DNA of 50,448 nucleotides, from assembly GCA_029260475.1 (NCBI GenBank), contig JAJDDE010000022.1, positions 1 through 50,448 on the forward strand. The letters are read 5' to 3'. The position numbers were made by a program, and so were the translations under genes. Positions 8,534-48,052 of the stretch are shown here, one piece after another (position 1 is the first letter of the stretch; every line of letters starts with the position of its first letter). Source of the stretch: Phycisphaerales bacterium (lineage in GTDB: Bacteria; Planctomycetota; Phycisphaerae; Phycisphaerales; UBA1924). The notes under the pieces were generated by a model. The model ran no database searches, was not told the DNA's origin, and worked only from the letters and a program-made list of their open reading frames with translations.

Positions 8534-10854
8534 CAGCCCACACCCCCCGCTCGGATGACAACGATCCACACGACGAAGAGCAGCAACACGAGGCCGACAG
8601 CCATCCCGCCCGCGTAGCCCTGCAGCACACCCGACTGCGTCGGGCGGATCGCCTTGGCGAGCGTCTTGGGCAGGCTGCCCGCGACGGTGACGGCGCCATC
8701 GACGAGCGTTTTGTCGATAAGGTGGAAGATGTGACTGACGACGAGCAGCGGCACGCGGATCACCATGTTGTAGAACTCGTCCACGTACCACTTGTTCTGC
8801 GCCCACGTCGGGATCGGGCCGAGCATCGGCAGCAGCTTGTCGGCACGCGAATGTGCGGCCTCGGTGCGGTTGCCGATGAACAGGCCCGCCGGGCCTTTGG
8901 GGCCGTGCAGGAACGCGGCGGCGAGGATGCCCACGAGGCCGAAGAGCGCCGAGACGTAGTACATCACCTTGTGCGGGTCCATGCCGAGGAACGTGCCGGC
9001 CTTCATGGCGCGCTCGTCCTTCTCGGCGTGATCATCGTCGTGGGAGTGACCGTCTTCGCCGTCGTGGCCCGGGTGGCTCGCGGGAATGACCTCGGCGTCG
9101 CCGATGCGGAGCGCGTGCTCCGCGCCGTGATCGTCGGGGTGGTCATCACCGTGGTGCCCGTGGGGCGAGACGTACGCCGCCGAGGAATCGGAGAGCAGCC
9201 CGCCGACCCAGCCCTTGCCCTCATCGGGCTTCACGAAGTACGTCGCGGCCGCCACGAGGCACGCCACAGCAAGAATCGCCAGCACCGCGTTGATCGCCCA
9301 GCCGGGCGGGTGCGGGTGGAAGTGGCTGTGGTCGTGGTCCTCGGCGTGATGCTCGTCGCCCGGTTCGTACTGCGCGGGGCCTACGAAGACGCGGAAGAAG
9401 ACGCGGAACGTGTAGTACGCGGTCAGCCCGGCGGTGAACAGCAGCACCCAGCCGATGAGCTGACCCCAGGGCGTGATAAACGCCTCGGCGAGGATCATGT
9501 CCTTGCTGAAATAACCCGCGGTAAACGGCACACCCGCGAGGTTCAGGCAACCGATGAACATCGCGATCGTCACGATGCGCCAGCCCGGCTGCGACCACAG
9601 ACCGCTGAGCTTGCGGAGGTCGAGCTGGCCCGCGAAGCCGTGCATCACGGCGCCGCACGCGAGGAAGAGCGTTGCCTTAAAGAAGGCGTGCGTGAAGACG
9701 TGGAAGGCAGCGCCGGTCGTCGTGAGCACGCCCAGGCCCGCGAACATGTAGCCGAGCTGCGAGACCGTGGAGTACGCCATGATGCGTTTGATGTCGAACT
9801 GCGCCATGCCGATGGTCGCCGCGAGCAGCGCGGTGACCATGCCTACGTAGCCGACGACCTGCAGGGCGATCATCGAACCGTCACTCAGCGTAAAGAGTGG
9901 GAAGCAGCGGGCGATCAGGTAGACGCCCGCGGTCACCATCGTCGCGGCGTGGATGAGCGCCGAGACCGGGGTCGGGCCCTCCATCGCGTCGGGCAGCCAG
10001 ACATAGAGGGGGAACTGGGCGGATTTGCCGAAGGCGCCGAGCATGAGCAGGCACGGGATCGCCCACGTCACCCAGCCCGAGATCGGGTCCCCGGCGACGT
10101 TGACGGCGTGCCCGTCGCTGATGAGTGGGAAGAGCTCCGCGTACTCGACGGTACCGAAGGTGATGTAGATCAGGAAGATGCCGAGGGCGAGACCGACGTC
10201 ACCGATGCGGTTGACGATAAAGGCCTTCTTGGCCGCCGCCACCGCTTCGGGCTTGGTGTAGAAGTAGCCGATCAGCAGGTAGCTGCAGAGACCGACGCCC
10301 TCCCACCCCAGGTAGAGCAGGACGAGGTTATCGCCCATGACAAGGCACGCCATCGAGAAGACAAAGAGGCCGAAGGCGCCGAAGAAGCGTGCGTACCCCT
10401 TGTCGCCCGCCATGTACTCGCTGGCGTACAGCGCGATGAGCGCACCGAGCCCGGTGACAAAGAGCATCCAGAGCCAGCTCAGACCGTCCATGTAGAACGA
10501 GAAGTTGGCGGTGAAGGTCTCGCCTGCGCCGCCCGAGCCCCACGACGCGTTGATCCACTCGAAGGCGTGGGCGATGTGCGCCCCGTCGCCGTTCCAGTTG
10601 AGGAAACCGACGAGCGTGATGACGAAGGCCACCGCGATCGTTCCGACCACGCCCCACGCGGGGAGCTTGGTGCGAACCTTGAAGCACAGCATCAGGGCAC
10701 TGGCGATCGCCCCGAGGATCGCGAGGAGGGGCACGAGCACCATGAGCCCGGAGCCCGCGCCGCTCGCGAGAGCGTCCTTCGAACCCGTGTACGACGCCGC
10801 GGCGTCGGCCGCGAGGGTCGTGATGGGCATCAGGCTGGTGAGTCCGTCGAGCAC
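8533..10854 (-). CDS. nuoL: NADH-quinone oxidoreductase subunit L with His/Asp-rich loops
   Basis: Distal antiporter-like subunit of complex I, including the long lateral helix. 773 aa, longer than the usual 600-680. Start GTG 10854 has AAGGAA about 7 nt upstream. Family motifs are GWEGVGLCSYLLIGYFYTK, AFIVNRIGDVGLALGIF, PLYVWLPDAMEGPTPVSALI and ALIHAATMVTAGVYLIAR. The extra length comes from two hydrophilic segments near the C-terminal third: one with EHHAEDHDHSHFHPHP at about 505-520 and a second at about 560-615 full of His, Asp and Glu. Such stretches could bind Ni, Zn or Cu or act as a proton buffer; this is inference. A 38-nt gap separates it from nuoK. Confidence 0.96.
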   Translation of the reverse strand: MLDGLTSLMPITTLAADAAASYTGSKDALASGAGSGLMVLVPLLAILGAIASALMLCFKVRTKLPAWGVVGTIAVAFVITLVGFLNWNGDGAHIAHAFEWINASWGSGGAGETFTANFSFYMDGLSWLWMLFVTGLGALIALYASEYMAGDKGYARFFGAFGLFVFSMACLVMGDNLVLLYLGWEGVGLCSYLLIGYFYTKPEAVAAAKKAFIVNRIGDVGLALGIFLIYITFGTVEYAELFPLISDGHAVNVAGDPISGWVTWAIPCLLMLGAFGKSAQFPLYVWLPDAMEGPTPVSALIHAATMVTAGVYLIARCFPLFTLSDGSMIALQVVGYVGMVTALLAATIGMAQFDIKRIMAYSTVSQLGYMFAGLGVLTTTGAAFHVFTHAFFKATLFLACGAVMHGFAGQLDLRKLSGLWSQPGWRIVTIAMFIGCLNLAGVPFTAGYFSKDMILAEAFITPWGQLIGWVLLFTAGLTAYYTFRVFFRVFVGPAQYEPGDEHHAEDHDHSHFHPHPPGWAINAVLAILAVACLVAAATYFVKPDEGKGWVGGLLSDSSAAYVSPHGHHGDDHPDDHGAEHALRIGDAEVIPASHPGHDGEDGHSHDDDHAEKDERAMKAGTFLGMDPHKVMYYVSALFGLVGILAAAFLHGPKGPAGLFIGNRTEAAHSRADKLLPMLGPIPTWAQNKWYVDEFYNMVIRVPLLVVSHIFHLIDKTLVDGAVTVAGSLPKTLAKAIRPTQSGVLQGYAGGMAVGLVLLLFVVWIVVIRAGGVG

Positions 10855-28808: not shown

Positions 28809-28853
28809 AAGTGGGCGTAACTGGACTCGAACCAGTGACTTCTGCGGTGTGAA
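28809..28853. repeat. Left attachment site: copy of the tRNA-Val 3' part
   Basis: Direct repeat of 45 bp shared with 40652-40696 with one difference (T at 28840 where the tRNA has C). It covers the tRNA-Val from the anticodon loop to the 3' end plus 3 flanking bases. The rest of the tRNA is absent here, as expected for the copy on the far side of an element that enters the 3' end of a tRNA gene. Confidence 0.92.
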
Positions 28854-29106
28854 AGTGGATCACACGCCCTGCCTCTCTGCGATTCGCCCTCTGGCCGAGG
28901 CTCGTAAGTCCAGAAGTTGACTCGTCTTTCAACTATAACGTGGGCTCACGGCGTGTGAGACGCGATCTGACGAGCGGGACGGAAATCGAGCGTCAGCGGG
29001 TCGTTCCGACCCGATCCGATCCCGCGTTTCGAGCGATGAACTCCATTGCTTTGGATGAGAGCCTGTTTGCGATCGGTTGCAGCCCGTGAGTGTCCGAGAC
29101 AACGGG

Positions 29107-29135
29107 TTGACGCCTTCGATGAATCACGATAATGT
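29107..29135 (+). promoter_or_regulatory. Promoter of the element's replication genes
   Basis: TTGACG (29107-29112) and TAATGT (29130-29135) are exactly 17 bp apart, a near-consensus sigma-70-type promoter, about 155 nt before ATG 29291. It lies in the 437-bp gap 28854-29290, which otherwise holds no gene I can support. Confidence 0.6.
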
Positions 29136-29290
29136 ATGTACGGAGTCTGACCAACTCTCTCGCAGTCGGAGAACACCGCCTGCACTCGCCCCCGTCCCAC
29201 GGAGGCTCGCTTCGGCCTGTATGACCGTTGCGAGAGCGAGTGTTCGTGTTCACCGCGTCCGCCCGGACGCCGCACTTGCGAGGGTCAGAC

Positions 29291-29566
29291 ATGCCGCTCG
29301 AACAAGAAGCCCTGATAGACCTCGATGATGCTGTCGAGGTCTACGAAGAACGCACGCGTCATCGCCCCAACCGTGCGACGGTCTTTCGCCACGCTCTGGA
29401 CGGGATTCTGTCCCCCGCTGGCGAGCGGGTGTACCTAGAGCACATTCGAGTCGGGAGACGGATCTACACGTCTCGACAAGCGATCGAACGCTTCTGGGTC
29501 GCGTCGAGCAACGCGTCGAACCGTCGAGCACGCTCACGAACTCGAAACGAACGCTGCCAAGCCTGA
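29291..29566 (+). CDS. DUF1580-like small DNA-binding-type protein
   Basis: 91-aa basic protein. The stretch ALIDLDDAVEVYEERTRHRP, then ATVFRHALDGILSPAGERVY, then LEHIRVGRRIYTSRQAIERF follows the pattern of DUF1580 proteins from Planctomycetes. That is a helix-turn-helix similar to excisionase/MerR-type winged helices (two helices, then a wing with GRRIYTSxxAIxRF). ATG 29291 has GAGGG 7 nt upstream. As the first gene of the element's rightward unit it is a candidate directionality factor or regulator. The Arg/Asn-rich C-terminus may add DNA contacts. Confidence 0.75.
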   Translation: MPLEQEALIDLDDAVEVYEERTRHRPNRATVFRHALDGILSPAGERVYLEHIRVGRRIYTSRQAIERFWVASSNASNRRARSRTRNERCQA

Positions 29567-29664
29567 CCGCGACTTCACGCGGTCCGACGGTCGGTCTGCG
29601 TCACTCAACGAAAGGGCTGCACCGGGACAGTTGGTAACACCCGATGCAGCCGAGGTACTTAGCA

Positions 29665-31455
29665 ATGGATTCTAGCGACGAAAACGTTGCGATTCCCGTC
29701 ATCGACCGACGAGGCGAGGAGTTCAGCGGCACACGATTCCCCGAGGACTTCTTCGTCTACGTCGACGAAGAACCGGGCTACTACGAGTTCGATCGCGGCA
29801 CGATCGAACTGCGTCCCACTCCCGGCTCTGACAACCAGTTACTCGCTTATTGGATCGAGACGGACAACCCGGAACACGACGGGGCGGAACGCTGGACCGG
29901 CGAGCGATGGTGGAAGCAGGAGCGTGTACGCCGTCAGATCGAACGCGAGATCGCGGAACGCTCGCACGGCGGGAAACTGGTTCTCCCCGAGTCGAGCCCA
30001 TCACAGTGGGCAGAGATGTATCTGACGGTCAATCACACGTCGGTACTCGGCTACGGAGTGACGATCAGAACGCTCGTCTGGTGGCAGGGATCGTTCTGGG
30101 AGTTCGATCGGGCGAAACGGCAGTACGTCGCGGTTGAGAGCGAGACGATGCGTCACCGGGCGTTCCGGTTCCTCGAACGAGCGGTGTGTCGGTACACGAG
30201 CAAGGACCGGCGGGTGTCTCACGCGGCGTTCGATCCCGAACCGTCACAGGCTCGCAAGCTCGTCGAGGCACTGGCCGCGAAGTGCGACCGCGAGATGGAT
30301 CACGCTTCTCGGTTCTGGCTTCACCCGACTTACCGAAAGGACATGGGCGATCCGACGGAGATGCTGGTATTCGAGGATCGTGCCGCTCGGGTCAACAACT
30401 GGCTCGGCGAAGCACGGGCTGCTCGTCATCGCGGAATCGTCTGGGTGCGGGATGAGAGTCTGTTCTGCACCGAGGCCCTCCCCTACCCGTATCCGGGCGA
30501 CGATGACGGATCGTACGAACAGCCGCGTCCGCAGTTCGTGGCGTGGCTCGAAGATCGCTTCGGGCATGATCCGGGACAGATCGAAGTCGTACAGGAGTGG
30601 TTCGGGCTGTGTCTGACGAACGACACTCAGTTTCATAAGGCTCTGTACGTCCACGGACCCGCTCGCTCGGGCAAGTCCACGCTCGCACGTCTGCTCAGCA
30701 AGCTCGTGGGCGAGTACAACACCGCGACGCCGACGCTTCGTTCACTCACCCAGCAGTTCGGACTCTCGCCGCTCGTAGGCAAGCCACTTGCGATCATGGC
30801 CGATGCGAAGTTCACGGTCCGCGATCAGAGCGTGGCGACCGAGCGGCTGAAGTCGATCGTGGGCGAGGACACGATTCAGATCGAGCGAAAGTACCGAGAT
30901 CCGCAGAGCGTGCGGCTCTCCACCCGGTTCGTACTGATCTCGAACGACCAACTCGATCTCCGGGATGACTCGGCAGCGTTGGCAAAGCGGATGCTGTGCC
31001 TGACGATTCCCCGCACGTTCTACGGAAGCGAAGACCCGACGATCGAACTGAAGCTCGAACGGGAGATGCCGAGCATCTTGATCTGGGCGATACGGGGTCT
31101 CGCGAGACTCCGATCACGCGGCCGCTTCGTCGAGACGTCGCTGATGAAAGCCGCTCGCTCTGAGGCCGAAGAAGCGGGCTCGCCGCTCCGGGGATTCGTC
31201 GAATCTCGGCTCTCGGTCACAGACGATCACGACCCGCGACGGGCTCCAACGTCACGAGACGTCTACGACGACTACTGCGAGTGGTGTGTCGATGCCGGGG
31301 TTGACCGGAAGGCGATCTACCACTTCGTTCGCGAACTGATGGTCGCCGAGCCTCGCATCCGTAAGACCCGCCAGACGTCGGGCGAGCGACTGTATCTGTT
31401 GACCGGGATCTCGCTTCTCAATCCCTCGTCAGACGCTCGCGTCGGGAGGCTCTGA
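29665..31455 (+). CDS. Phage/plasmid D5-type (SF3) replicative helicase
   Basis: 596 aa. The C-terminal half is an SF3 helicase as found in P4-type primase-helicases. Walker A YVHGPARSGKSTLARLL at about 328-344, Walker B LAIMADAK at about 373-380, motif C RFVLISNDQ at about 420-428, followed by ALAKRMLCLTIPRTFYGSED, the arginine-finger region. N-terminally there is the D5_N-like linker (PQFVAWLEDRFGHDPGQIEV, then QEWFGLCLTNDTQFHKALYV). The first 200 residues do not show primase catalytic motifs (no DxD or TOPRIM pattern that I can see), so a primase may be missing or diverged. Start ATG 29665 is preferred over ATG 29644 because GAGG precedes it. The candidate origin lies directly downstream. 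Confidence 0.85.
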   Translation: MDSSDENVAIPVIDRRGEEFSGTRFPEDFFVYVDEEPGYYEFDRGTIELRPTPGSDNQLLAYWIETDNPEHDGAERWTGERWWKQERVRRQIEREIAERSHGGKLVLPESSPSQWAEMYLTVNHTSVLGYGVTIRTLVWWQGSFWEFDRAKRQYVAVESETMRHRAFRFLERAVCRYTSKDRRVSHAAFDPEPSQARKLVEALAAKCDREMDHASRFWLHPTYRKDMGDPTEMLVFEDRAARVNNWLGEARAARHRGIVWVRDESLFCTEALPYPYPGDDDGSYEQPRPQFVAWLEDRFGHDPGQIEVVQEWFGLCLTNDTQFHKALYVHGPARSGKSTLARLLSKLVGEYNTATPTLRSLTQQFGLSPLVGKPLAIMADAKFTVRDQSVATERLKSIVGEDTIQIERKYRDPQSVRLSTRFVLISNDQLDLRDDSAALAKRMLCLTIPRTFYGSEDPTIELKLEREMPSILIWAIRGLARLRSRGRFVETSLMKAARSEAEEAGSPLRGFVESRLSVTDDHDPRRAPTSRDVYDDYCEWCVDAGVDRKAIYHFVRELMVAEPRIRKTRQTSGERLYLLTGISLLNPSSDARVGRL

Positions 31456-31492
31456 TGGTGGTGCTCAGATCACGTCTAGCACTCTCTGTGCT

Positions 31493-31616
31493 TGCTAGTC
31501 CGTGCTGGACGGCTGGACGGATTTTCCGCTCGGGGCGTCATCGAACGAGCGTGGAATGTCTCCGGATGACGCCCCGGACGCCGAATCCGTCTAGCACCGT
31601 CCAGCACGGACTAGCA
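31493..31616. repeat. Long inverted repeat, arms about 50 bp, 22-nt loop
   Basis: The outer 20 bp are perfect (31493-31512 with 31597-31616), the inner 12 bp are perfect (31531-31542 with 31565-31576), and the part between matches at 12 of 18 positions. That gives 44 of about 50 paired positions around the loop 31543-31564. It lies in the 452-bp noncoding stretch right after the helicase gene and could be part of the element's replication origin. Confidence 0.85.
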
Positions 31617-31673
31617 GTCGGACGGAGTGCTAGACGTACGTTTTTCCGCGTTCAGAGCCTCCCAGCCACGATT

Positions 31674-31808
31674 CCGTCTAGCAGACCAGCAGAAGTCTCA
31701 AAAACTTTCTCAGCCAGATAACAGAGGAAAGAAGAGAGCGAGACGGCGGATCTGCACGCGGAACACGCTGAGAAATGTTTTCGCCGGAACTGCTGGTCTG
31801 CTAGACGG
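31674..31808. repeat. Second inverted repeat, 19-bp perfect arms
   Basis: 31674-31692 is the exact reverse complement of 31790-31808. The arms contain TGCTAGACGG-like text, which also appears in the first inverted repeat (near 31587) and as a single copy at 31627-31635, so the region has an iteron-like word GCTAGACG in both orientations. The 97-nt interior includes an AT/purine-rich stretch at about 31700-31740 that could be an unwinding element. Confidence 0.8.
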
Positions 31809-31907
31809 ATCGGCCCGGATCACCCTCGAAGTCCCGCCCGTCGTCACGCCCATTGACAGGGACAGACGACCAATCTTGCAACTGAGTGCATACACGAAAG
31901 GACAGAT

Positions 31908-32618
31908 ATGCAGACGAACGACACACGCCTCGAGATCGATGAGAAGCAGATACGAGAGTTCCGAGACGCGATCGCTCGCAAGATCCCGAACGAAGCGGCC
32001 GTACTCGAATACCTCGACCAACTGACATACGACGCAGCGTTGAAGTACCACGATCAGTTATCTCCGAACGAGGTCACGGCCTCGACGCTCTGGGCGACAG
32101 CAGATCGATTCAGCGGGCGAGAGCCCATGCAACGCGTCGACGCCACTCAGGGCGTCACAGACGCTCACACCGACGCTCTGACGCGTAGCCCTCGACTGCC
32201 TGATGATCAGCGTGCGACGAAAGCCGGATCTCGGATCGAGGCCCTACGTCGCCGGACCGACCCGATCGAACTGCTGCGGATGCTCGCGTACGAACTGATC
32301 ATCGCGAACCGTGAGTTCACGCCGCTCGAACTCGCTGTCACCGAATACCTGGGCCTCTCCCAAGTCGATCTGTTCGTGCCGTCCGAACCGCTCATGGAAC
32401 TCGCGGGATTCGAGGGCCGAGACCCCTCGTCGCTCGACGACAACGAGGCGGGGAAGGTGCATCTCGCAGCGTTCATGTACTCGGTGCTCGACCTCGAACG
32501 TCGTACGCCGACGTCGGATCAGCTTCGGCAGTTCGACGTCGAGTGCGATCGACTGCGAGGGGCATTTCAGATGCTCCCGTGCCGCGATTCTCATGGCTAC
32601 TATGATTCACGGCAATAA
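31908..32618 (+). CDS. Element protein of unknown function
   Basis: 236 aa, not recognised. ATG 31908 has AAAGGA 8 nt upstream. Mostly alpha-helical and charged (IDEKQIREFRDAIARKIPNE, then ALRRRTDPIELLRMLAYELI), without signal peptide, membrane segment or catalytic motif that I can see. Two Cys only near the C-terminus. It is the first of five genes in close order (31908-34435) and begins right after the inverted-repeat region, so a link to replication or packaging is possible but unproven. Confidence 0.7.
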   Translation: MQTNDTRLEIDEKQIREFRDAIARKIPNEAAVLEYLDQLTYDAALKYHDQLSPNEVTASTLWATADRFSGREPMQRVDATQGVTDAHTDALTRSPRLPDDQRATKAGSRIEALRRRTDPIELLRMLAYELIIANREFTPLELAVTEYLGLSQVDLFVPSEPLMELAGFEGRDPSSLDDNEAGKVHLAAFMYSVLDLERRTPTSDQLRQFDVECDRLRGAFQMLPCRDSHGYYDSRQ

Positions 32619-32653
32619 TCGATACCCTCACTGTTCCGTCAAAGGAGACACGT

Positions 32654-33388
32654 ATGACTCAGATGACTCAGATGACAGGTCAAGACATTCGACAGATCGC
32701 CGCGTTCGGCGGTCACGGCATCCCGCAAGACGTGCCCGAGGAATACGAGTCGCGACCAGAGGCGGCGAAGATCCTCCGCTTCGTCGCGGAGAACCTCGGA
32801 CGACTCGACGGGCTGATCACAGACTTCGACGACGAGGCCGAACGAGTCGATCGCTCTAAGAGCTTCACCAAGATCGGACGCGAGCAGGAGATGGGCCGCG
32901 TCGCTCTGGAGTTCGGGCGTCGAGTCGACACACTTCGCGTTGACGATCAGTTCCTGCCCGCTGCTCGACAACGTCTGGCGATCGAACAAGAGCGTGTGGG
33001 CGAGAGCCGAGGGCCGGGGCTCTCGTTCGCCGATCGCGTGGCACTCAACATCGCGATCCGTCAGTGTCACGAGATCACGCCCGAGGCCGAGATCATCGGT
33101 CCGTACCGCTCGATCGCAGAACAAGCGATCGAGAGCGGGGACGATCAGACACTCGAAGCGTTGCTGGGCGTACCGGCTTCGATCAGCCCGTTCGAGGACG
33201 AAGATCGACAGGAACTCATCGACAGTTGGAACGCCGCTCGCTCGCCAGTGCAGGCACGACTGGTCGCGGATCTTCGACGGGCGATCTCGGCTCTCGAATC
33301 TCGGCTCCGCGTCGTCCGCACCCGCATCGCCAGCCGCACCGGCACGAACGACCCGCTGCGTCAGGTAGCGAGCGGCGGGAACGCGTGA
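32654..33388 (+). CDS. Element protein of unknown function
   Basis: 244 aa, not recognised. AAAGGAG precedes ATG 32654 by 7 nt. Acidic N-terminal half (EEYESRPEAAKILRFVAENL and GRLDGLITDFDDEAERVD) and a helical C-terminal half ending in a basic coil (RRAISALESRLRVVRTRIAS). No enzymatic motif seen. Its stop overlaps the next start (TGATG), so it is translationally coupled to the 130-aa gene that follows. Confidence 0.7.
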   Translation: MTQMTQMTGQDIRQIAAFGGHGIPQDVPEEYESRPEAAKILRFVAENLGRLDGLITDFDDEAERVDRSKSFTKIGREQEMGRVALEFGRRVDTLRVDDQFLPAARQRLAIEQERVGESRGPGLSFADRVALNIAIRQCHEITPEAEIIGPYRSIAEQAIESGDDQTLEALLGVPASISPFEDEDRQELIDSWNAARSPVQARLVADLRRAISALESRLRVVRTRIASRTGTNDPLRQVASGGNA

Positions 33389-33780
33389 TGGGCGACTCCG
33401 ATCAGATCGAACAGTCTGAGTCGCAGACGCTTCGCGACGATCGCGGTCGGTTCGTCAAAGGCACGCGAGGCGGACCGGGCAACACAACCCCGAAGAAAGT
33501 CGCTCGCCTGCGGTCGAAGCTCATCGAGTTCGTCGAAGAACACGACGCTCTGAATCACATCGTGAGCCAGCTCATCCAGATCGTGATAGATCCGAACGAA
33601 CACCCGCTCTCGCGGATCAAAGCTGCGGAAGTCGTGCTGTCGTACACGCTGGGCAAGCCGACAGAGGGGCTGGACGTCATCGCAGAGGTCGAAGCCCTGC
33701 ACGCTCGACTCTCGCTCGACAGCCCGACCATGTCGTTCAGTCAGACCGTTCGCCGGGGCTTCCTCGCGGGTGACGAATGA
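33388..33780 (+). CDS. Phage-type protein, DUF5681- or small-terminase-like
   Basis: 130 aa from ATG 33388. The N-terminus LRDDRGRFVKGTRGGPGN is the R-x-(G)RF-x-KG-x-x-GGPG motif found in DUF5681 and related phage proteins at the start of terminase-region genes. The rest, VARLRSKLIEFVEEHDALNH, then IVSQLIQIVIDPNEHPLSRI and KAAEVVLSYTLGKPTE, is a helical repeat-like domain also seen in small terminase subunits and relatives. The stop overlaps the next start (ATGA). If it is a small terminase, the element could be packaged by a helper phage; without other packaging genes this is only a suggestion. Confidence 0.65.
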   Translation: MGDSDQIEQSESQTLRDDRGRFVKGTRGGPGNTTPKKVARLRSKLIEFVEEHDALNHIVSQLIQIVIDPNEHPLSRIKAAEVVLSYTLGKPTEGLDVIAEVEALHARLSLDSPTMSFSQTVRRGFLAGDE

Positions 33781-34073
33781 GCGTCGCCGCGATCGCGAAG
33801 AAGCTCCGAGCGGAAGCCGCTCGGCGTGCGAACGATGCCGAACGCGTGGTCAAACTTCGTCTCGTCATGTGCGAGGCACTCGCAGGCATGGAACTCGTTG
33901 AGGAACTCGACGCGTGGAATCCCCCGACTGTCAGTGAGTGCCAAGTCCTTGCACGTCAGTATGTCGATCGCGTCGCGAACCGCATGGGCGACGTACCGCA
34001 GCACCCAGACGCACCGACATTGCTCGATCAGATGGCCGAGCGTCTCGCTCACCAGTTCGGAGAGCCTGCGTGA
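33777..34073 (+). CDS. Small element protein of unknown function
   Basis: 98 aa, ATG 33777 overlapping the previous stop. A helical, basic N-terminus (SVAAIAKKLRAEAARRANDA) is followed by an acidic middle (CEALAGMELVEELDAWNPPT). No match recognised. Position after the DUF5681-like gene and coupling on both sides (the next start overlaps its stop, GTGA) argue that it is expressed. Confidence 0.6.
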   Translation: MSVAAIAKKLRAEAARRANDAERVVKLRLVMCEALAGMELVEELDAWNPPTVSECQVLARQYVDRVANRMGDVPQHPDAPTLLDQMAERLAHQFGEPA

Positions 34074-34435
34074 CAGTCCAACGCTCTGAACTCGCGGTGC
34101 TCGGCACACCGGGCGTGATATACGCACACGACGCGGGGGTCGCGTCGTACAACCTGAGACAATCCAGCAGCGAGCTACTCAAGTACGTGTCAGAAAACGA
34201 TCTCTCTGGCAATCCACAGAACGACGATCACGCCAACGACGCCGTAGAAGAGTTTGCCAGCTTTGCTAGTCGGGTCCAGCATCTCAATCCAAACGGAATC
34301 CCGTCCACTGCCTGCTCCGCCCATCAGTCATCTCCAATGTCGGTACGAATCCGCGAAGAACCAAAGGGCTCCCAGCGTACACCAAGGGGAGTCAGTGGAA
34401 TCGCCTGCGAGATCGCGGTGGAAAAGTACGACTGA
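34070..34435 (+). CDS. Possible small element protein
   Basis: 121 aa from GTG 34070, which overlaps the preceding stop in the GTGA pattern used elsewhere in this window. The text (SSSELLKYVSENDLSGNPQN, then AVEEFASFASRVQHLNPNGI) is hydrophilic and soluble; the last third is Ser/Pro-rich and poorly protein-like. No Shine-Dalgarno sequence of its own. It may be a coupled gene, a decayed one, or a chance frame. Confidence 0.4.
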   Translation: MTVQRSELAVLGTPGVIYAHDAGVASYNLRQSSSELLKYVSENDLSGNPQNDDHANDAVEEFASFASRVQHLNPNGIPSTACSAHQSSPMSVRIREEPKGSQRTPRGVSGIACEIAVEKYD

Positions 34436-34644
34436 CCAGAGAACCACCCTCGCGGCTTCAGATCCATCGAAAGCGATGGACGCTACTCGGATCTCGTCTC
34501 TCGCCCCGACGCTCTCGCTCGCTCCCTACGGGATCTCGTTCGAGACGACCCCCGAGTAGCTCGATCGCTCGCGGACGCAGCACAAGACGTCTGAGACGCG
34601 GGAATCACAATCTGATCAGGGCCTGCGTGCGGCCCGTCTCCTTT

Positions 34645-34684
34645 CACGACCCCGTTCGATCTCCGAGCGGGGTCGTGTTGTTTT
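34645..34684 (+). terminator. Rho-independent terminator after the five-gene row
   Basis: CACGACCCCG (34645-34654) pairs with CGGGGTCGTG (34668-34677), then TTGTTTT. It lies in the 334-bp gap 34436-34769 between the small genes and the second recombinase; apart from the palindrome at 34704 I see nothing else there. Confidence 0.7.
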
Positions 34685-34703
34685 CTGCTTGCCCCTCTCA
34701 GGG

Positions 34704-34719
34704 TTGACTCTAGAGTCAA
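34704..34719. promoter_or_regulatory. Palindromic operator before the second recombinase
   Basis: TTGACTCTAGAGTCAA is a perfect 16-bp palindrome 50 nt before ATG 34770. A further half-site TTGACTC occurs at 34740-34746, and a second palindrome TGACGTCA at 34725-34732. This is the arrangement expected for a dimeric repressor controlling the recombinase; the first half-site could also act as a -35 element. Confidence 0.5.
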
Positions 34720-34769
34720 GTGAATGACGTCAATGTGTATTGACTCCCGACCCGATCGCGAGGCCCAGA

Positions 34770-35834
34770 ATGACGAACGAGATCACGTTCACCACCGCAG
34801 AACTCAGGCGACTGGCGTTGCCGGGAATGCGTCCGCTGCCTGAACGCGACCCGGTTCTCGCGTACTTCAACTCGCTGACGTCAGAGAACTCTCGCGACGG
34901 GATGACCAAGGCACTTCGATCGGCCCTACGGATCATTCTCGAACGACCGATCATCAAGACCGAGAGCGGGCGAACTGTCGTGTCGGTAACGACCGACGAG
35001 CTTCACGAGTTCCCGTGGGATCAACTGACGCCCGCCCACGCAGCCGCGATCCGAGCGTCGATCGCGGCCTCCGATCTCTCGACCGCGTCGAAGAACAAGA
35101 TGATCAACGGCATACGCGGGGTCATCAAGTCCGCGTGGCGTCTCGAACTCATCGACGGCGAACGCTCGGAACGCGTGCGTGACGTGCTCAAGACGATCAA
35201 GGCCGTGTCGGACGAGCCGTCAGGCCGCTACGTCGAGTGGGGAGAACGCAAGGCCCTATTCAGAGTCTGCGGACGTGACGACACGCCTCGGGGTGCTCGC
35301 GACGCGGCGACGCTCGCCCTGCTGTGCATCGGGCTCAGACGCTCGGAAGTTCGCTCGCTGAACATGAGCGACTTCGACCCCGCGACCGGGCGACTCGCGA
35401 TCCGACAGTCGAAGGGCGGTCGGACGCGGAACATCTACGTCGACAACGGGGCACTCGAAGCGATGAAGCTCTGGCTCTCGGTCCGAGGCGACGAACGCGG
35501 TGCGTTGATCCTGCCCGTCACCCGCTCGGGTACGACCGTGCTTCACACGAAGAAGCCGCGAGGCAGCACGGCCAAGAAGCCAGCACGGATGACCGACAAC
35601 GCGATCTACGCGATCCTGAGCCGTCGCATCGACGAAGCGGGGATCAACCCGTTCACGCCCCACGACCTGCGTCGCACCGTGATCTCCGACCTGCTCGACA
35701 GCGGGGTCGATCTCCCGACCGTGCAGGCCCACGCTGGGCACGCGAACCCGATGACCACCGCCCGATACGACAGACGCGGCGATCGGGCGAAGCGGAAGGC
35801 GGCTGGGACGATCGAGGTGCCGTTTTCGACCTGA
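34770..35834 (+). CDS. Tyrosine recombinase (XerC/phage integrase family), internal
   Basis: Site-specific recombinase, 354 aa. The catalytic set is visible: Arg in LCIGLRRSEVRSLN (about 190), Lys in RQSKGGRTR (about 215), HDLRRT (about 297-302), HAGHANPMT (about 319-327) and nucleophile Tyr333 in TARYDRR. N-terminal SAM-like core-binding domain with LTPAHAAAIRASIAASDL. Start ATG 34770 has CGAGG upstream. It lies in mid-element, not next to an attachment site, so it may act in resolution of multimers or be the remnant of a second element. A palindromic operator precedes it. Confidence 0.92.
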   Translation: MTNEITFTTAELRRLALPGMRPLPERDPVLAYFNSLTSENSRDGMTKALRSALRIILERPIIKTESGRTVVSVTTDELHEFPWDQLTPAHAAAIRASIAASDLSTASKNKMINGIRGVIKSAWRLELIDGERSERVRDVLKTIKAVSDEPSGRYVEWGERKALFRVCGRDDTPRGARDAATLALLCIGLRRSEVRSLNMSDFDPATGRLAIRQSKGGRTRNIYVDNGALEAMKLWLSVRGDERGALILPVTRSGTTVLHTKKPRGSTAKKPARMTDNAIYAILSRRIDEAGINPFTPHDLRRTVISDLLDSGVDLPTVQAHAGHANPMTTARYDRRGDRAKRKAAGTIEVPFST

Positions 35835-35911
35835 GCTATCACGCAGTCTTCTTAGAGTTTCGCCGGAGCGGTATGATTGGGGAGACCACGCCGATCCACG
35901 GAGAACCTGTG

Positions 35912-38095
35912 ATGACTGCAAAGATGAAACTCGTTGCCTTCCGAGTTACGACCTACCGCTCGGTCGAAGACAGCGACTGGATAGACGCGGACGACGTCAC
36001 CGCCATGATCGGCACAAACGAGTCCGGCAAGACCAACCTCTTGCTGCCGCTGTGGAAGCTCAACCCGGCGAACGAAGGGGAAATCAACCTCCTCTCCGAT
36101 GCCCCGCGAAAGGACTACAGCTCAATCCGAAACATGGAGCCGAAGCCGGACTTCATTCATGCTCGCTTTGAACTAGCCGAAGCCACAGCCAAGATGGTAG
36201 CGATACAAAGTGGCAGGCCGATTGAAGAAATCCAGACGGTCGAAGTCTGCCGCGACTACGACGGTCACTACGGCGTTCACTTTCCCAACGCGAATGAAGT
36301 GAATGCTGTTGAAGCAGCGGAAGTGGTTGGCCTGCTTCGTAGCGGCCACTCCGAGATCGAGGGTATGCAGCCGTCAGGTAAGTCAGACACTGAACTCAAG
36401 GCCGCACTGATCTCCGCAGTCTCCTCTGCACTCGAACAGGCATCTCAGCATGAGGGCGACTTTGACGCCGAAGCACTTGAGAGTCTTTCTACGTTTGTAA
36501 CTGCTGGTGCGATTGAGTCTGCACCCACTCGCTCGACCGTTGCACCGCGATTTGGCCAGCTTGCCGATGCCATCACGAAACTCGTACAGAGGCTCCGCAA
36601 GCCTGGGCCGGGCGAGAACGAAAAAGTGACGGAGATGATTATCAAGTGGCTGCCGTCGTTCGTGTACTACTCGACATACGGCAATCTGGACTCGGAAATC
36701 TACCTCCCGCACGTCATCGACGACCTCGATCGAGACGACTTGACGGGCAAGGCCGAAGCCCGAGCACGAACACTCCGAGTGCTGTTCAGCTTTGTGCAGC
36801 TCTCGCCGCAGGAGATTCTCGAACTTGGTCGCGATTGGGACAGTCAAGGTCAGCCAACACAGGAGCAGATCGAATCACTGAACGAGAAGAAGAAGGAACG
36901 AAGCGTCCTTCTGCAATCAGCCAGTACTACGCTCACAGAAAAGTTCCGCGAGTGGTGGAAGCAGGGCGAGTACCGCATCAGATTCGAGGCTGACGGCAAC
37001 CACTTCCGCATCTGGGTTTCAGACGACAAGCGGCCAGAAGAGATCGAACTAGAGGGTCGCAGTACTGGGCTCCAGTGGTTCCTAAGCTTCTATCTCATCT
37101 TCCTTGTCGAGAGCAGCAAGGCTCACAACGGAGCAATCTTGCTGCTTGATGAGCCGGGACACTCTCTGCACCCGATCGCCCAGAACTTCTTGTCGGAGTT
37201 CTTTGAGAGCCTCGCTGCATCGAACCAGCTTCTCTACACGACGCACTCACCCTTCCTCGTCGACGCCGACCACCTAGATCGAGTGCGTGCTGTCTTCGTT
37301 GATGATGATGGGCATACGAACGTCTCGTCGAATCTGCGGGCCGGACAAGTCGCAGCCAAAGCCAACTCGATCTATCCGGTGCACGCCGCTCTCGGCCTGA
37401 GCGTCTCTGACACGCTGTTTCAGGGATGCAAGATCGTCATCGTGGAGGGGCAGTCCGATCAGCTCTATCTCAGTGCGATCAAGACCGCACTCGTATCACT
37501 CGGCAAGTATCAGCCAAAGCAGGAGTTGCTGTTCGTGCCAACATCGGGGGCGAAGGCGATCAAGACCGTTGCTGCGATTCTGAGTGGGCGTGAAGGCGAT
37601 CTTCCGCACGTCCTCTGCGACGCCGACCATGCAGGACTAACTCTCGCGAGCACTCTCCGCAGCAGCCTCTACAGCGATTCCCAAGCCTCGATTCACACCA
37701 CCGGCGATCTTCTGGCGATAGAGAACACAGAGGTTGAAGACCTGATCCCTGCATCGTTCGCCTCACCGACTCTCGACCGTTATCTCAAGGGGCCTATCGA
37801 TCGGCCGTTCACCCTGTCTGAAGATCGACCGATCGTCCCGCAGGTCAAAGAGTACGCCGAAGCCAACGCGATCGAACTATCGAAGGGCTGGAAGGTGGAG
37901 GTCGCGAGGCTGATGAAGTTGCGACTTGCTGCCACAGACCTCAGCACGAACGATTGGACGGAGGCCGTGAGCATCTGGGTCAAGCTCTTTGAGTCACTCG
38001 ATCCAAAGAGTGCATCATCATCGAACGCAAAGCCCATAACGCAGGTCGAGCGGCTGCCGAACCAGACGGCGGCAGAGACCAACCGATCGTCTTGA
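35912..38095 (+). CDS. OLD-family ATP-dependent nuclease (AAA ATPase plus TOPRIM)
   Basis: 727 aa. ABC-type ATPase domain at the N-terminus: Walker A GTNESGKTN at 34-42, Walker B ILLLDEPGHSLHP at about 407-419, and the TTHSPFLVD H-loop at about 443-451. The C-terminal TOPRIM domain shows IVIVEGQSDQLYLSAI at about 507-522 and HVLCDADHAGLT at about 565-576, the acidic metal ligands of OLD nucleases. A long coiled insertion lies between the ATPase halves. It is not followed by a UvrD-like helicase, so it resembles stand-alone class 1 OLD proteins rather than Gabija GajA. OLD of phage P2 excludes lambda; by analogy this may be the element's defence gene. GGAGA precedes ATG 35912. Codon use looks less GC-rich than its neighbours. 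Confidence 0.9.
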   Translation: MTAKMKLVAFRVTTYRSVEDSDWIDADDVTAMIGTNESGKTNLLLPLWKLNPANEGEINLLSDAPRKDYSSIRNMEPKPDFIHARFELAEATAKMVAIQSGRPIEEIQTVEVCRDYDGHYGVHFPNANEVNAVEAAEVVGLLRSGHSEIEGMQPSGKSDTELKAALISAVSSALEQASQHEGDFDAEALESLSTFVTAGAIESAPTRSTVAPRFGQLADAITKLVQRLRKPGPGENEKVTEMIIKWLPSFVYYSTYGNLDSEIYLPHVIDDLDRDDLTGKAEARARTLRVLFSFVQLSPQEILELGRDWDSQGQPTQEQIESLNEKKKERSVLLQSASTTLTEKFREWWKQGEYRIRFEADGNHFRIWVSDDKRPEEIELEGRSTGLQWFLSFYLIFLVESSKAHNGAILLLDEPGHSLHPIAQNFLSEFFESLAASNQLLYTTHSPFLVDADHLDRVRAVFVDDDGHTNVSSNLRAGQVAAKANSIYPVHAALGLSVSDTLFQGCKIVIVEGQSDQLYLSAIKTALVSLGKYQPKQELLFVPTSGAKAIKTVAAILSGREGDLPHVLCDADHAGLTLASTLRSSLYSDSQASIHTTGDLLAIENTEVEDLIPASFASPTLDRYLKGPIDRPFTLSEDRPIVPQVKEYAEANAIELSKGWKVEVARLMKLRLAATDLSTNDWTEAVSIWVKLFESLDPKSASSSNAKPITQVERLPNQTAAETNRSS

Positions 38096-38154
38096 TGTCT
38101 CAACGTTGACAAGACCCGTTCACAGACTGATCCTTGGCACCTGTCAACACAGTT

Positions 38155-38976
38155 CTACTTGTTGAGCAACCTGCGATCTCGTCGCCTGCGAAGCGTCGCA
38201 ACTGCCAAGACCATCGACAGCGGACCAAGCGTTCCGGTTGACGGAACGATCGAGAACGCGACCAGATCGAGGTTCGCATTGTTGTAGTTCGACGGGTTGT
38301 CGCCGGCCGCTAGCACGAAACTCGCGGTGATCCTCGCCGAGCGAGAGCCGAGCGGCACGTCTCCCGCGATGTCACGGAACTCCGAGAAGTTCCTGAACCC
38401 AACGAACGTGAACCCCTCGTCGTTGACGAGTCCCGCCTGCGGCTCGGTCGGTCCGACCAGCATCGCGTCACCGACGATGAGCCCCTCCGAATCGAGAAAC
38501 TCGATAGTGACCATCGTCTGGTCGGCTTCGCCACAGCATCCTCGCAAGCCGTCGGGGGAGGGCCGGTTGAACGAACCGAGCCAACCCGACAAATCGAATC
38601 GTGCTTGACCCTCGTCGATGAGATCGCTCGCGAAGTCCATCGAGATCGTCTGAGTGATCGATGTTCCCGCGTCACCTCCGAAGAGCACCCACTCACCGGC
38701 GTTGGGCGGAACGTCGTTCTCGTAGTTCGGTGAGGGCTCCCAGAAGTCACCGGTGTAGAGATCGAGCGACAGTGTGCCCGACTCCTCCCAGCCGACCAAG
38801 TCTGCGAGTAGCCCAGTCTCCGTGATCACGGGCGGAGGGCCGTCCGACCCTTCGAGTTCATCGAACGACTCGAAGCTCCCGTTGATCACGAGATTCTGCC
38901 CGAGCATCGGGCTTCCGTATGCAGCGTGCGTTGCCACGAAGCACACAGCTATGGCGATTGACACGAGTCTGGACAT
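38155..38976 (-). CDS. Secreted PEP-CTERM-type protein carried by the element
   Basis: 273 aa exported protein. ATG 38976 has GGAGGA 5 nt upstream. Signal peptide MSRLVSIAIAVCFVATHAAY, cut near AYG/S. The mature domain opens GQNLVINGSFESFDELEG, a start typical of carbohydrate-binding-like jelly-roll domains (DUF642/CBM-like, LVxNGSFE), with strand-rich text to residue about 240. The tail VPSTGTLGPLSMVLAVATLR followed by RRRDRRLLNK is a PEP-CTERM-type sorting signal. It points against the OLD gene, so it is a separate transcription unit. Such a host-type surface protein on a mobile element suggests a cargo that alters the cell surface or attachment of phage. Confidence 0.83.
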   Translation of the reverse strand: MSRLVSIAIAVCFVATHAAYGSPMLGQNLVINGSFESFDELEGSDGPPPVITETGLLADLVGWEESGTLSLDLYTGDFWEPSPNYENDVPPNAGEWVLFGGDAGTSITQTISMDFASDLIDEGQARFDLSGWLGSFNRPSPDGLRGCCGEADQTMVTIEFLDSEGLIVGDAMLVGPTEPQAGLVNDEGFTFVGFRNFSEFRDIAGDVPLGSRSARITASFVLAAGDNPSNYNNANLDLVAFSIVPSTGTLGPLSMVLAVATLRRRRDRRLLNK

Positions 38977-39138
38977 GTCTTCCTCCGTGGACGAGAGCGG
39001 CAGGTCACGCCGTCTGTTTCAGGAGCAAGTATACGGATTCTGTGCTGTTCATCAACTTCGATGATCTCGTGAGGCGTCGCGAGTTCTCGGACTCGTTTCT
39101 AACTATTGCTTATATCCGGCGGGCGACGCGACTTGCGT

Positions 39139-40530
39139 TCATGCCGACTGCTTGTGGATCACACACCCGATGTCCACAGTCGGGGGGTGCAGATATCTCT
39201 GGGTGGTCGTAATCGACTGGTGCCCGAGCTTGAACATCCCACGCTCGATGCCCTCGTTGAGCACGATCTCGGTCGCGGCGGTGTGACGCAGGTCGTACGG
39301 CGTCCACGCACGGACTCCCGCCTTCTTCACCGCACGTCCGATCGATCGTCCAAACGTGTCTTTCGTCCACGGTCGGTCTGCCGGTCGTAACGGGTTCTCG
39401 GCCCGACGAGCGTCGCGTGAACGATTGCACGACAGATACGACTGACGAGCTTCGCGACGGGCGGATGCTCGCTCGGCCTCGCTCTTTGCGGGCGTGAAGA
39501 TCAGTTCGTTCGCCCGGCAGTCGTGAACGTACGGTTCGAGAATCACGACTCCCGCTTCTGGGATCTCGATCCGACGTTCGTACCCGTGATGCTCGGTCTT
39601 GTGATGCTCGGGGCGGTAGATCCAGACGTCGCTCGTCTGTTCGATCGCACCGGGTGTCATCCCGAACAGTTCGGACGGTCGCATCCCGGTCAGACGCAAG
39701 AGCATCACCATGTCGCGGAGATGCTGGGTCGGCAGGTGCGGGAGTGTCGCATACAGATCGCTGATCGAGATGAGCCGGATCTGTCCCTCGGTTCGCGGAC
39801 GCCGGGTCACGATCAGCGAGCGTCGGCTCACGCTCTCGACGTCCTTGAGATCGTTCACGACGTTGCCTAGTTCGGGAAGCCGACGCTTGTGCATCTTGTT
39901 CGCGTGCTTGAATGCCGCTCGGATAACGGCCATCCGCCCGTTGATCGACGAGAAGCAGAGACGCCCGCTCGCGATCATCTCGTCCCGGATCTGCCGCAGG
40001 TGCTGATCGCGGAAGGACGTGGCGGGCATCATCCCGAACGCCTGACGGTGCGGGTCGAGAAACGCCCGGAACTTCTTGATCGTGCCCTCTGTGACCGGTC
40101 GCTCGACGTCACGCTCGCGGTGACTGACGTACTCGTCGAAGACGTCATTGACGGTCAGGCTCGGTTCTCGGCTCTCGGACCGCCCGAGCGAGCGATTGAC
40201 GTCCGAGTCGTGGACGTACTCGTTGCGGCGACGCCGCTCGGCAGAGCGGAGATCCCGGATCTTGAGTTCGTCCCGGCAGCGGGCCTTGATCTCGGACACG
40301 GCCTGTCGATCGAGCGGCTGACGACCCCGGTCGTTCCACTCTGTCATCAACGCGTAGTAGACGCGTGACGCGAGCGGGCTCGGGCGGTCGTTCTCGCGGT
40401 CCCACGGACCGAGCGTGATCCGAGAACTGGCGATGCGTGCGACAACCGCCGACCCGTTCGCGTGGCGATACGGCTGCGGATCGCCCTTGGGCTTGCGGAG
40501 GACTTTCTTGACCGGGATGCGTCGGGACAT
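39139..40530 (-). CDS. int: Tyrosine recombinase, integrase of the element
   Basis: Site-specific integrase, 463 aa, beside the intact tRNA-Val, the usual place for the enzyme that inserted the element. Catalytic residues: Arg in LLRLTGMRPSELFGMT (about 300), Lys in EHHKTEHHGYERR (about 330), YDLRHTAATEI (the first His of the HxxR box is Tyr, as in some phage integrases), LGHQSITTTQRYL with His and the nucleophile Tyr. N-terminal domain is rich in Arg/Lys with an arm-binding look (MSRRIPVKKVLRKPKGDPQP). Start ATG 40530 has AAGGAG 6 nt upstream. Confidence 0.95.
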   Translation of the reverse strand: MSRRIPVKKVLRKPKGDPQPYRHANGSAVVARIASSRITLGPWDRENDRPSPLASRVYYALMTEWNDRGRQPLDRQAVSEIKARCRDELKIRDLRSAERRRRNEYVHDSDVNRSLGRSESREPSLTVNDVFDEYVSHRERDVERPVTEGTIKKFRAFLDPHRQAFGMMPATSFRDQHLRQIRDEMIASGRLCFSSINGRMAVIRAAFKHANKMHKRRLPELGNVVNDLKDVESVSRRSLIVTRRPRTEGQIRLISISDLYATLPHLPTQHLRDMVMLLRLTGMRPSELFGMTPGAIEQTSDVWIYRPEHHKTEHHGYERRIEIPEAGVVILEPYVHDCRANELIFTPAKSEAERASARREARQSYLSCNRSRDARRAENPLRPADRPWTKDTFGRSIGRAVKKAGVRAWTPYDLRHTAATEIVLNEGIERGMFKLGHQSITTTQRYLHPPTVDIGCVIHKQSA

Positions 40531-40610
40531 GGAGGCTCCTTAGACGTCACGCAGGGTCGAGATCAAAGATCCGACCCGTTGCAAGACTTCATGAGCCTCC
40601 ACATTGGGAA

Positions 40611-40643
40611 CCTGATCCCGCCGCAACACGCGGCGGGATCAGG
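40611..40643 (-). terminator. Strong hairpin between tRNA-Val and the integrase
   Basis: A perfect 14-bp stem (40611-40624 with 40630-40643) around the loop AACAC lies 12 nt after the 3' end of tRNA-Val on the minus strand. No marked T-run follows (TTCCCAAT). Because the original terminator was separated by the insertion, this element-supplied hairpin probably ends the tRNA transcript or shapes its 3' end. Confidence 0.6.
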
Positions 40644-40651
40644 GCTTAGAG

Positions 40652-40696
40652 AAGTGGGCGTAACTGGACTCGAACCAGTGACCTCTGCGGTGTGAA
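40652..40696. repeat. Right attachment site within tRNA-Val
   Basis: The intact partner of the repeat at 28809-28853; 44 of 45 bp identical. It includes the 3' half of tRNA-Val, from its anticodon loop to the discriminator, plus 3 bases beyond. Confidence 0.92.
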
Positions 40697-40728
40697 CACA
40701 GCGCTCTAGCCAACTGAGCTATACGCCC
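40655..40728 (-). tRNA. tRNA-Val (anticodon CAC)
   Basis: 74-nt cloverleaf on the minus strand. Acceptor GGGCGTA/TACGCCC, D-arm GCTCAGTTGGCTAGAGC, anticodon stem CTGTG/CGCAG with loop TTCACAC giving CAC, variable AGGTC, T-arm ACTGG TTCGAGT CCAGT, discriminator A. CCA not encoded. Its 3' half is the element's target. Confidence 0.97.
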
Positions 40729-46533: not shown

Positions 46534-47109
46534 ATGCACGCCGACCCAAGCGCCCCAGAACGCCTCACCATCGTCCACTACCCCGCCTCGGTCCTGCGCG
46601 AGCGGTCCAAGCCCGTCGAATCGGTGGACCAGACCGTCCAGGCCGTCGCGCAACGCATGATCCGGCTCATGCACGAGGCCCCCGGCATCGGGCTGGCCGC
46701 CCCGCAGGTCGGGCTCCCGTGGCGTCTCTTCGTCTGCGACGTGCCCCCCGACGAGGAGGGCGAGCGGTCTGCCGATGGGGAGCCGCTCGAAGCGACCAGC
46801 CGTCCGATGGTCTGCATCAACCCCGTGCTCAGCGATTTCTCACGCGATCTGGTCCCCTACGAGGAAGGCTGCCTGAGCCTGCCCGACATCTTGGGCAACG
46901 TGCGGCGTCCAACCGAGGTCACCCTTAACGCACTGGATATCAACGGCGAGGCCTTCTCCATTCGAGCCACCGACCTGCTCGCCCGCTGCTGGCAACACGA
47001 GTTCGACCACCTCGAGGGAGTGCTGATCATCGATCGCATGGACCCCGCGGGGAAGATGCGGAACAAACGCGCGATCAAGGACCTCGAGTCCGGGGCACGC
47101 CTCGCGTGA
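46534..47109 (+). CDS. def: Peptide deformylase
   Basis: Removes the formyl group from new proteins. 191 aa. All three motifs are intact: GIGLAAPQVG (motif 1, about 49-58), EEGCLSLP (motif 2, Cys metal ligand, about 111-118) and QHEFDHLEG (motif 3, HExxH-type, about 153-161). An insertion after FVCDVPPDEEGERS lengthens the first beta hairpin. ATG 46534 has no Shine-Dalgarno sequence; TAGACT ends 9 nt upstream. fmt follows after 10 nt, the usual def-fmt pairing. Confidence 0.97.
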   Translation: MHADPSAPERLTIVHYPASVLRERSKPVESVDQTVQAVAQRMIRLMHEAPGIGLAAPQVGLPWRLFVCDVPPDEEGERSADGEPLEATSRPMVCINPVLSDFSRDLVPYEEGCLSLPDILGNVRRPTEVTLNALDINGEAFSIRATDLLARCWQHEFDHLEGVLIIDRMDPAGKMRNKRAIKDLESGARLA

Positions 47110-47119
47110 GGGATGCCCC

Positions 47120-48052
47120 ATGAGACTGGCCTTCCTCGGCTCAGGTGCCTTCGGCCTCCCAACGATCGAGCGCCTGCACGCAGAGCACGAACTCTGCGCC
47201 GTCGTCACCCAGCCCGACAGGCCGGCGGGGCGCAAGCGTGTCCCCACCGCTACGCCGATCGGCAAGTGGGCCGAGGCGCACGTCCCCGGGACCCCGCTGA
47301 TGAAACCCGAGGACGTGAACGCCCACCAACCCCGTGAGATGCTGCGACACCTCGGAGCCGACGCCTGGGTCATCATCGCCTTCGGGCAGAAGCTCTCGCC
47401 CGAGCTCCTGGACGGCGTTTTCGCGATCAACCTGCACGCCTCGCTGCTGCCGCGCTGGCGTGGCGCCGCACCGATCCACCGGGCGATCGAGGCGGGCGAT
47501 AACACCACCGGCAACAGCGTGATCACGATCGCAGACCGCATGGACGCAGGCAGCGTGCTCGCCAGTTCCGAGCGGGCGATCGAGCCGCACCACACCACCG
47601 GGGAGCTCCACGACCTGCTTGCCTCGGATGGCCCCGAGGTCATCCTCCGCGTCCTGAACGACCACGCGAAGGGCGAGGTCCGGTACGAAGAGCAGGACGA
47701 ATCGCTCGTGACGCGCGCACGCAAGATGACCAAACAGGAGGGCACGCTGGATTTCTCGCTGAACGCGCGATTGTGCCGGTGCCGCATCCACGCCTTCAAC
47801 CCGTGGCCCAGCGTGACGGTCATGCACCGCGACGCGCTGCTCAAACTGCACCGAGCAATCGAATCACAAGAGGCCACAGCCAAGCCCGTCGGGACACTCG
47901 TTGATGCGGGGCACGGGCTCATCGCGTGCGCCGCAGGCACGTGCCTACAGCTGCTCGAGGTGCAGCCCGCCAACAAACCGCCCATGCTCTGGGACGCGTA
48001 CGCGAACGGACGCGGTCTCCAAGCGGGCGAGCGTCTGGAGCCGATGTCGTGA
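47120..48052 (+). CDS. fmt: Methionyl-tRNA formyltransferase
   Basis: Adds the formyl group to initiator Met-tRNA. 310 aa with N-terminal formyltransferase domain: MRLAFLGSGAFGLPTIERLH, VVTQPDRPAGRKRVPTATPI, DAWVIIAFGQKLSPELLD, INLHASLLPRWRGAAPIHRA (the SLLPxxRGxAPI signature), TGNSVITIADRMDAG; and the C-terminal tRNA-binding OB domain (ARKMTKQEGTLDFSLNARLC, IHAFNPWPSV). It is linked to def (10 nt) and overlaps the next gene (GTGA). Confidence 0.97.
   Translation: MRLAFLGSGAFGLPTIERLHAEHELCAVVTQPDRPAGRKRVPTATPIGKWAEAHVPGTPLMKPEDVNAHQPREMLRHLGADAWVIIAFGQKLSPELLDGVFAINLHASLLPRWRGAAPIHRAIEAGDNTTGNSVITIADRMDAGSVLASSERAIEPHHTTGELHDLLASDGPEVILRVLNDHAKGEVRYEEQDESLVTRARKMTKQEGTLDFSLNARLCRCRIHAFNPWPSVTVMHRDALLKLHRAIESQEATAKPVGTLVDAGHGLIACAAGTCLQLLEVQPANKPPMLWDAYANGRGLQAGERLEPMS

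Follow-up and report, generated by a model that had tools for sequence, protein, structure and literature searches.

A probable phage satellite with a small-terminase family gene, integrated in tRNA-Val(CAC) of a Phycisphaerales bacterium

Phage satellites have been described mainly from Proteobacteria and Firmicutes, and recently from Cyanobacteria and Actinobacteria (PMC11389934). TerS-bearing, SaPI-type PICIs form multiple lineages of about 15 kb or less that insert between att repeats and carry an integrase at one end, a regulator or excision gene (Stl/Rpr or AlpA/MerR), a primase or replication initiator followed by an origin, accessory genes and, in some PICIs, a terS homologue; genes for virions or lysis are absent (PMC6092414). 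A small terminase (TerS) without a packaging motor is the arrangement by which these PICIs redirect packaging (PMC6092414). PICMIs, small satellites of tailed phages, combine int, an HTH regulator (AlpA) and a DUF5906 or DUF3987 primase with defence cargo, have no terS and lie beside fis (PMC10803314). P4-like satellites have a P4-family primase/helicase and variable cargo (PMC8628076). Tycheposons and VEIMEs (reviewed in PMC11389934; PMC10872708) are tRNA-associated tyrosine-recombinase elements of environmental bacteria with cargo, some of them proposed satellites. A literature text search, with subscription papers and preprints outside its scope, found no paper in which phage satellites and Planctomycetes are brought together. 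Here we analyse a 50,448-nucleotide stretch of DNA (the window), taken from contig C22 of an assembly of 3.43 Mb that is 97% complete and is placed among the planctomycetes by its relatives in a named collection. We propose that a phage satellite of the kind that redirects packaging by TerS is probably inserted in its tRNA-Val(CAC) gene.

The element is bounded by the 45-bp direct repeat with one mismatch that an earlier note on this DNA had reported. The left copy, attL (28809–28853), is a displaced tRNA-Val 3′ part, whereas the right copy, attR (40652–40696), belongs to the functional tRNA-Val gene as its 3′ part; they are identical at 44 of 45 nucleotides (blastn within the region, E 1.6e-15). 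The repeat starts in the anticodon loop of tRNA-Val(CAC), runs to the 3′ end of the gene and extends 2–3 nucleotides past it, and the displacement of its left copy from the tRNA gives an element size of 11,843 bp. The intact target gene (40654–40728, minus strand; ARAGORN), which has empty orthologues in ten genomes, adjoins the tyrosine integrase intA (39139–40530, minus strand; PF00589 1.3e-14, phrog_1 6e-32), in agreement with the earlier placement of the integrase at the tRNA end. The G+C content of the element interior is about 56–64%, compared with about 64–71% in most of the window. ARAGORN called a second tRNA-Val at 28811–28889, besides the right-hand gene. We rejected it as a functional tRNA, since it joins the displaced 3′ half to element DNA serving as a poor 5′ half, and take the right-hand gene as the functional one. 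The attL regions of the window (28811–28889) and of the related element L050 (17468–17550) both have element DNA that gives a tRNA-like 5′ half, hence the ARAGORN call; judged against random upstream DNA, the chance of such a half is 1.3% in the window, about 1% in L050 and up to 28% in other elements. A complete tRNA-like sequence may be present in attP.

Reading inwards from attL, the element begins with a small DUF1580-like HTH protein (29228–29566, plus strand; probable start ATG at 29291), a candidate excisionase or regulator that matches PF07618 below the Pfam cut-off (E 0.003). Similar ORFs lie at the same position in the relatives L110 (PF07618 2.8e-4) and L092 (tblastn). Next comes an SF3 replicative helicase of the P4 family, of the phage/plasmid primase C-terminal type (29644–31455, plus strand; TIGR01613 1.9e-40, PF19263 (DUF5906) 7e-20, phrog_864 2.5e-52), in which no N-terminal primase domain was recognised. 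The candidate replication origin of the earlier note is real as a repeat cluster: iterons of the form CCGTCTAGCA, in direct and inverted copies, occupy 31467–31810, with seven copies (at most one mismatch) in 31472–31808. Across the whole window there are 11 copies against 2.5 expected, a number that none of 100 shuffles attained. In L092, too, iterons follow the helicase gene at this position, with another sequence (GGTGGTCCAAG).

Four small genes follow on the plus strand: orf236 (31908–32618), without a family match, whose position is held in relatives by a protein of 156–197 amino acids; orf244 (32654–33388), conserved directly upstream of TerS in related elements; orf130 (33388–33780), assigned by family profile and gene context to a DUF5681-related TerS family; and orf98 (33777–34073), a small protein after TerS, whose place is taken in relatives by short proteins that vary in sequence. 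intB, a second tyrosine recombinase (34740–35834, plus strand; PF00589 2.4e-25, phrog_1 2.6e-36), is conserved in position, is 29–46% identical to its counterparts in relatives and is a candidate multimer or concatemer resolvase. The cargo comprises an OLD-family AAA ATPase with TOPRIM domain, a predicted defence gene (35912–38095, plus strand; PF13175 1.6e-19, PADLOC Old 9.9e-24), and a secreted protein with a signal peptide and a PEP-CTERM-like C-terminus (38155–38976, minus strand), recognised from its sequence and without a family match. L050 also has secreted PEP-CTERM-like cargo (8707–9885); we noticed no similarity between the two proteins. Family searches of the element found no capsid, portal, tail or TerL gene and recognised neither a relaxase nor a partition gene, and Pfam and PHROGs gave no match to psu, sid, delta, epsilon or alpA. 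Pfam, PHROGs and PADLOC bear out the gene content described in the earlier note (replication helicase, two recombinases, OLD nuclease, surface cargo, virion genes absent). Its four 'small phage-type genes' are present as well; what it overlooked is the TerS-family membership of orf130 and the conserved block that these genes form with intB in other elements too.

The locus has the general anatomy of a phage satellite, being bounded by att sites and containing an integrase and a replication gene but no virion genes. A gene that redirects helper packaging or capsids, a further mark of satellites, is putatively orf130, as judged by family profile and gene context. Like PICIs, the element has an end integrase, insertion at att repeats, a candidate regulator or excision gene, a replication gene followed by a candidate origin (SF3 helicase, then iteron cluster), accessory genes, a compatible size, multiple lineages and, in the absence of virion and lysis genes, a terS homologue, recognised by profile and context. 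Unlike them, it has no recognised Stl/Rpr or AlpA homologue and instead the DUF1580-type HTH protein, with its weak match at 29228–29566; it differs further in its replication protein, DUF5681 TerS family, tRNA targets and second recombinase. With PICMIs it shares int, a candidate HTH regulator, defence cargo and the primase type (DUF5906 in the window, DUF3987 in the minimal relative L105), whereas its TerS, its site in tRNA-Val and not beside fis, and the absence of a recognised AlpA set it apart. The P4-family helicase and variable cargo recall P4-like satellites, but the markers psu, sid, delta, epsilon and alpA gave no matches. Tycheposons and VEIMEs resemble the element as tRNA-associated tyrosine-recombinase elements with cargo, those in PMC10872708 being larger and carrying metabolic genes. 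Integrative mobilizable elements resemble the locus in tRNA integration, size and cargo, and differ from it in that no relaxase was recognised here. Because no markers of P4 or PICMI and no relaxase were recognised, and because its regulator and its TerS family both differ from those of PICIs, we regard the element as a variant of TerS satellites and not as a PICI. TerS-bearing satellites are already known as PICIs; the variant is apparently undescribed in Planctomycetota.

We searched the tRNA-Val region in 61 genomes of the family. RecQ synteny yielded no orthologous empty sites, so we compared tRNA orthologues, reading over 8–18 kb ten places in ten genera that are not isogenic with the window site because the neighbouring genes differ. 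All ten genomes, one from each genus, have one intact tRNA-Val(CAC) and a single copy of its 3′ part, and one of these tRNAs is identical to that of the window at 77 of 77 positions. None of the ten places (8–18 kb each) holds a homologue of intA, intB, orf244 or orf130; that of L225 has a stretch resembling the L051 primase (31% identical). tRNA-Val is normally unoccupied in the family, and the relatives with an empty tRNA-Val that the earlier note had proposed to look for exist in ten genomes.

The absence of virion genes, the helicase and the att repeat, from which the earlier note had argued for a phage satellite or integrative plasmid, fit both equally. orf130 alone gave no significant single-sequence match to phage TerS, and its membership comes through the family profile; 27 of 31 family members match Pfam PF18932 (DUF5681) weakly (best E 4.4e-6). 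A profile built from chromosomal members only found P12024L_38 (1.2e-11, among 3,654 ORFs) and UOF79918 of MW202647 (6e-8), each of which overlaps the next gene, annotated TerL. A first TerS motif had no match in IMG/VR. A looser one, encoding GNxGGPGNP and applied to the DNA regardless of gene context or TerL, hit 23 contigs, four with true orf130-family members. TerL is the next gene in all four (phrog_979 3e-97, phrog_2 6e-31 and phrog_38 1e-5 twice), and a portal gene comes after TerL in all three IMG/VR lineages tested. IMG/VR scans with the helicase, orf244 and early orf130 queries (single proteins, small alignments) found nothing. Altogether, the confident phage members are directly upstream of TerL in six cases out of six. 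A DUF5681 protein has been found in particles of Salmonella phage STGO-35-1, and its gene (46,936–47,355) lies in the last 550 bp of the 47,483-bp genome, opened at TerL (PMC8954984). On chromosomes, a search with one TerL profile (phrog_2), over contigs of which many are short, found TerL within 100 kb on the same contig at none of 41 TerS places in 37 genomes. The phage gene context, the DUF5681 matches and the absence of nearby TerL indicate that the orf130 family is terminase-associated in phages and without packaging motor on chromosomes. Predicted models of orf130 were weak (mean pLDDT 56 and 62), too poor for a fold search, and in the TerS tree phage and chromosomal rows are intermixed without support.

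Two candidate phage relatives were set aside. Gene 6 of phiEco32 is the best phage-record match of orf130 (E 0.4–2) and precedes TerL, and the family profile does not support it; MW202711 matches the profile (E 6e-6), yet its gene lies four or five genes upstream of TerL, and it was left out of the count. An IMG/VR phage contig (L272:9132–10896) carries a TerS whose N-terminus has the NGxNGR motif seen in the planctomycete satellites, and offers a lead towards a phage of the helper type.

A search with orf244 found three relatives and one with orf130 found more. Their common block runs DUF1580-type HTH protein, replication gene, orf236 position, orf244, orf130, orf98 position, intB, cargo, intA, and is whole or mostly present in seven elements, the present one and six others, with the order kept in nearly all. 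Position served in part to assign the counterparts of orf244 and orf236 in L092 and L110, and those of some HTH proteins. As the earlier note had anticipated, the gene set recurs beside other tRNAs: tRNA-Pro (L050, 42-bp repeat, 12.8 kb), tRNA-Ala (L051, 48-bp repeat, 12.5 kb; L052, 47-bp repeat, 12.7 kb; L249, 47-bp repeat, 14.8 kb, orf244 not detected), tRNA-Gly (L110, 45-bp repeat, 13.5 kb) and tRNA-Arg (L092, 51-bp repeat, 9.7 kb). None of the six has TerL or virion genes. Nor did we find either observation named in the earlier note as speaking against a mobile element, namely the same region in relatives without the repeat or colinear conservation across distant species. The replication genes differ in kind between elements. 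In L092, a serine recombinase (PF00239, 3.8e-36) takes the place of intB, suggesting a resolvase-like role for the latter. L051 and L052 belong to two genera; their backbone proteins are 64–96% identical (dN/dS 0.09–0.33), and their flanks show no detectable similarity.

The cargo of the sister elements differs and consists mostly of predicted defence genes: L051 and L052 carry different type II restriction genes, and L110 carries PDC-S28. A SIR2-like PDC-S21 occurs in L107. Defence hotspots of a similar kind are known from P4-like satellites (PMC9122126). An 888-amino-acid cargo protein of L050 (6203–8869) has no Pfam or PADLOC match and may be a defence protein that has so far escaped recognition. 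Immediately beyond the left repeat of L052, an OLD-family gene (1304–3271) is 26% identical to that of the window and is possibly part of a second, neighbouring element.

The TerS family of orf130, together with the lack of a recognised relaxase, favours a phage satellite over an integrative plasmid or integrative mobilizable element, so that the earlier designation was right in outline. An integrative plasmid-like element would insert in tRNA-Val, replicate by the SF3 helicase, use intB as resolvase and spread free of particles, with orf130 as a DNA-binding replication or partition protein. The helicase, iterons and second recombinase or resolvase would suit such a replicating circle, and plasmids with related primases exist. 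We nevertheless consider this improbable, as no relaxase or partition gene was recognised, the orf130 family stands directly upstream of TerL in every confident phage context, and a family member had no match among 72,556 plasmids.

The phage-type character of TerS, integrase and replicative helicase would also be expected of a prophage remnant, a temperate phage in tRNA-Val that lost TerL and virion genes and kept TerS and int. Decay, however, would not give the same content repeatedly at several tRNAs, and the block recurs in six other elements, with its order kept in nearly all of them and no TerL or virion genes in any, its backbone genes being under purifying selection (dN/dS 0.09–0.33); we give a remnant only a very slight chance. 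Hardly more credible is a static island, in which cargo and defence genes have become immobilised in the tRNA. Movement is without direct proof and the att copies differ by one mismatch, but tRNA-Val is unoccupied in ten genomes, both recombinases are intact, sister elements lie at unrelated sites with near-perfect repeats, and L051 and L052 point to exchange between genera.

For the phage satellite that we prefer, a phage DNA-packaging recognition gene without shell or packaging motor makes it most likely that the element spreads by packing of its DNA into the particles of another virus. From the anatomy, family assignments, relatives and selection, which the assembled sequence, our sole source of data, displays, we infer each step of the following cycle. 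Infection by a helper phage, or its induction, would lead the HTH protein and intA to excise the element, and the SF3 helicase would replicate it from the iterons at 31467–31810. Multimers would be resolved by intB (a serine recombinase in one relative), and the element's TerS would mark its DNA for the helper TerL and portal, so that it is packed into helper particles; in the next cell, intA would integrate it at tRNA-Val. The interval between intB and intA would act as a cargo slot whose defence genes, here OLD, may guard the host against competing phages. The assembly also contains a contig of a tailed phage, C210 (TerL 3e-39), whose small terminase is of another type than orf130; similarity between its DNA and the element does not exceed chance. 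Its region L230:11339–19562 (G000:C210) holds a TerS-like ORF, a DNA methyltransferase, TerL and portal-like and capsid-like genes, and is possibly a prophage or a co-binned phage.

TerS-like genes occur in 37 of 301 sampled genomes of the order (about 12%, roughly one in eight) and, at a stricter threshold, in 15 of 294 genomes across the phylum. Among 42 surveyed TerS loci, 16 lie inside a tRNA-matching repeat of 22–69 bp, with element sizes of 4.6–14.8 kb, and five more have a tRNA beside the integrase and no detected repeat. If our reading is correct, about 12% of the genomes in a single order of planctomycetes would contain TerS-bearing satellites with anti-phage systems, and the function of small terminase could be assigned to DUF5681, so far a domain of unknown function. 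The family profile combined with the tRNA repeat would offer a simple means of finding such elements, and TerS a handle for finding their helper phages. A broader idea, which we would sooner doubt than accept, is that Planctomycetota have their own large, independently evolved kind of satellite around DUF5681-type TerS, with an additional conserved orf244/orf98 module for taking over packaging and, as an obligatory part, a second recombinase of tyrosine or serine type for resolving or exchanging packaged multimers and cargo. The smallest element read in detail, L105 (4.8 kb, tRNA-Ser), combines TerS and an integrase with a zinc-ribbon protein, an HTH protein and a DUF3987 replication protein. 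In another genus, tRNA-Val(CAC) is occupied by a different TerS element of 4.9 kb, L247 (G063:C1), making this same tRNA a repeated target.
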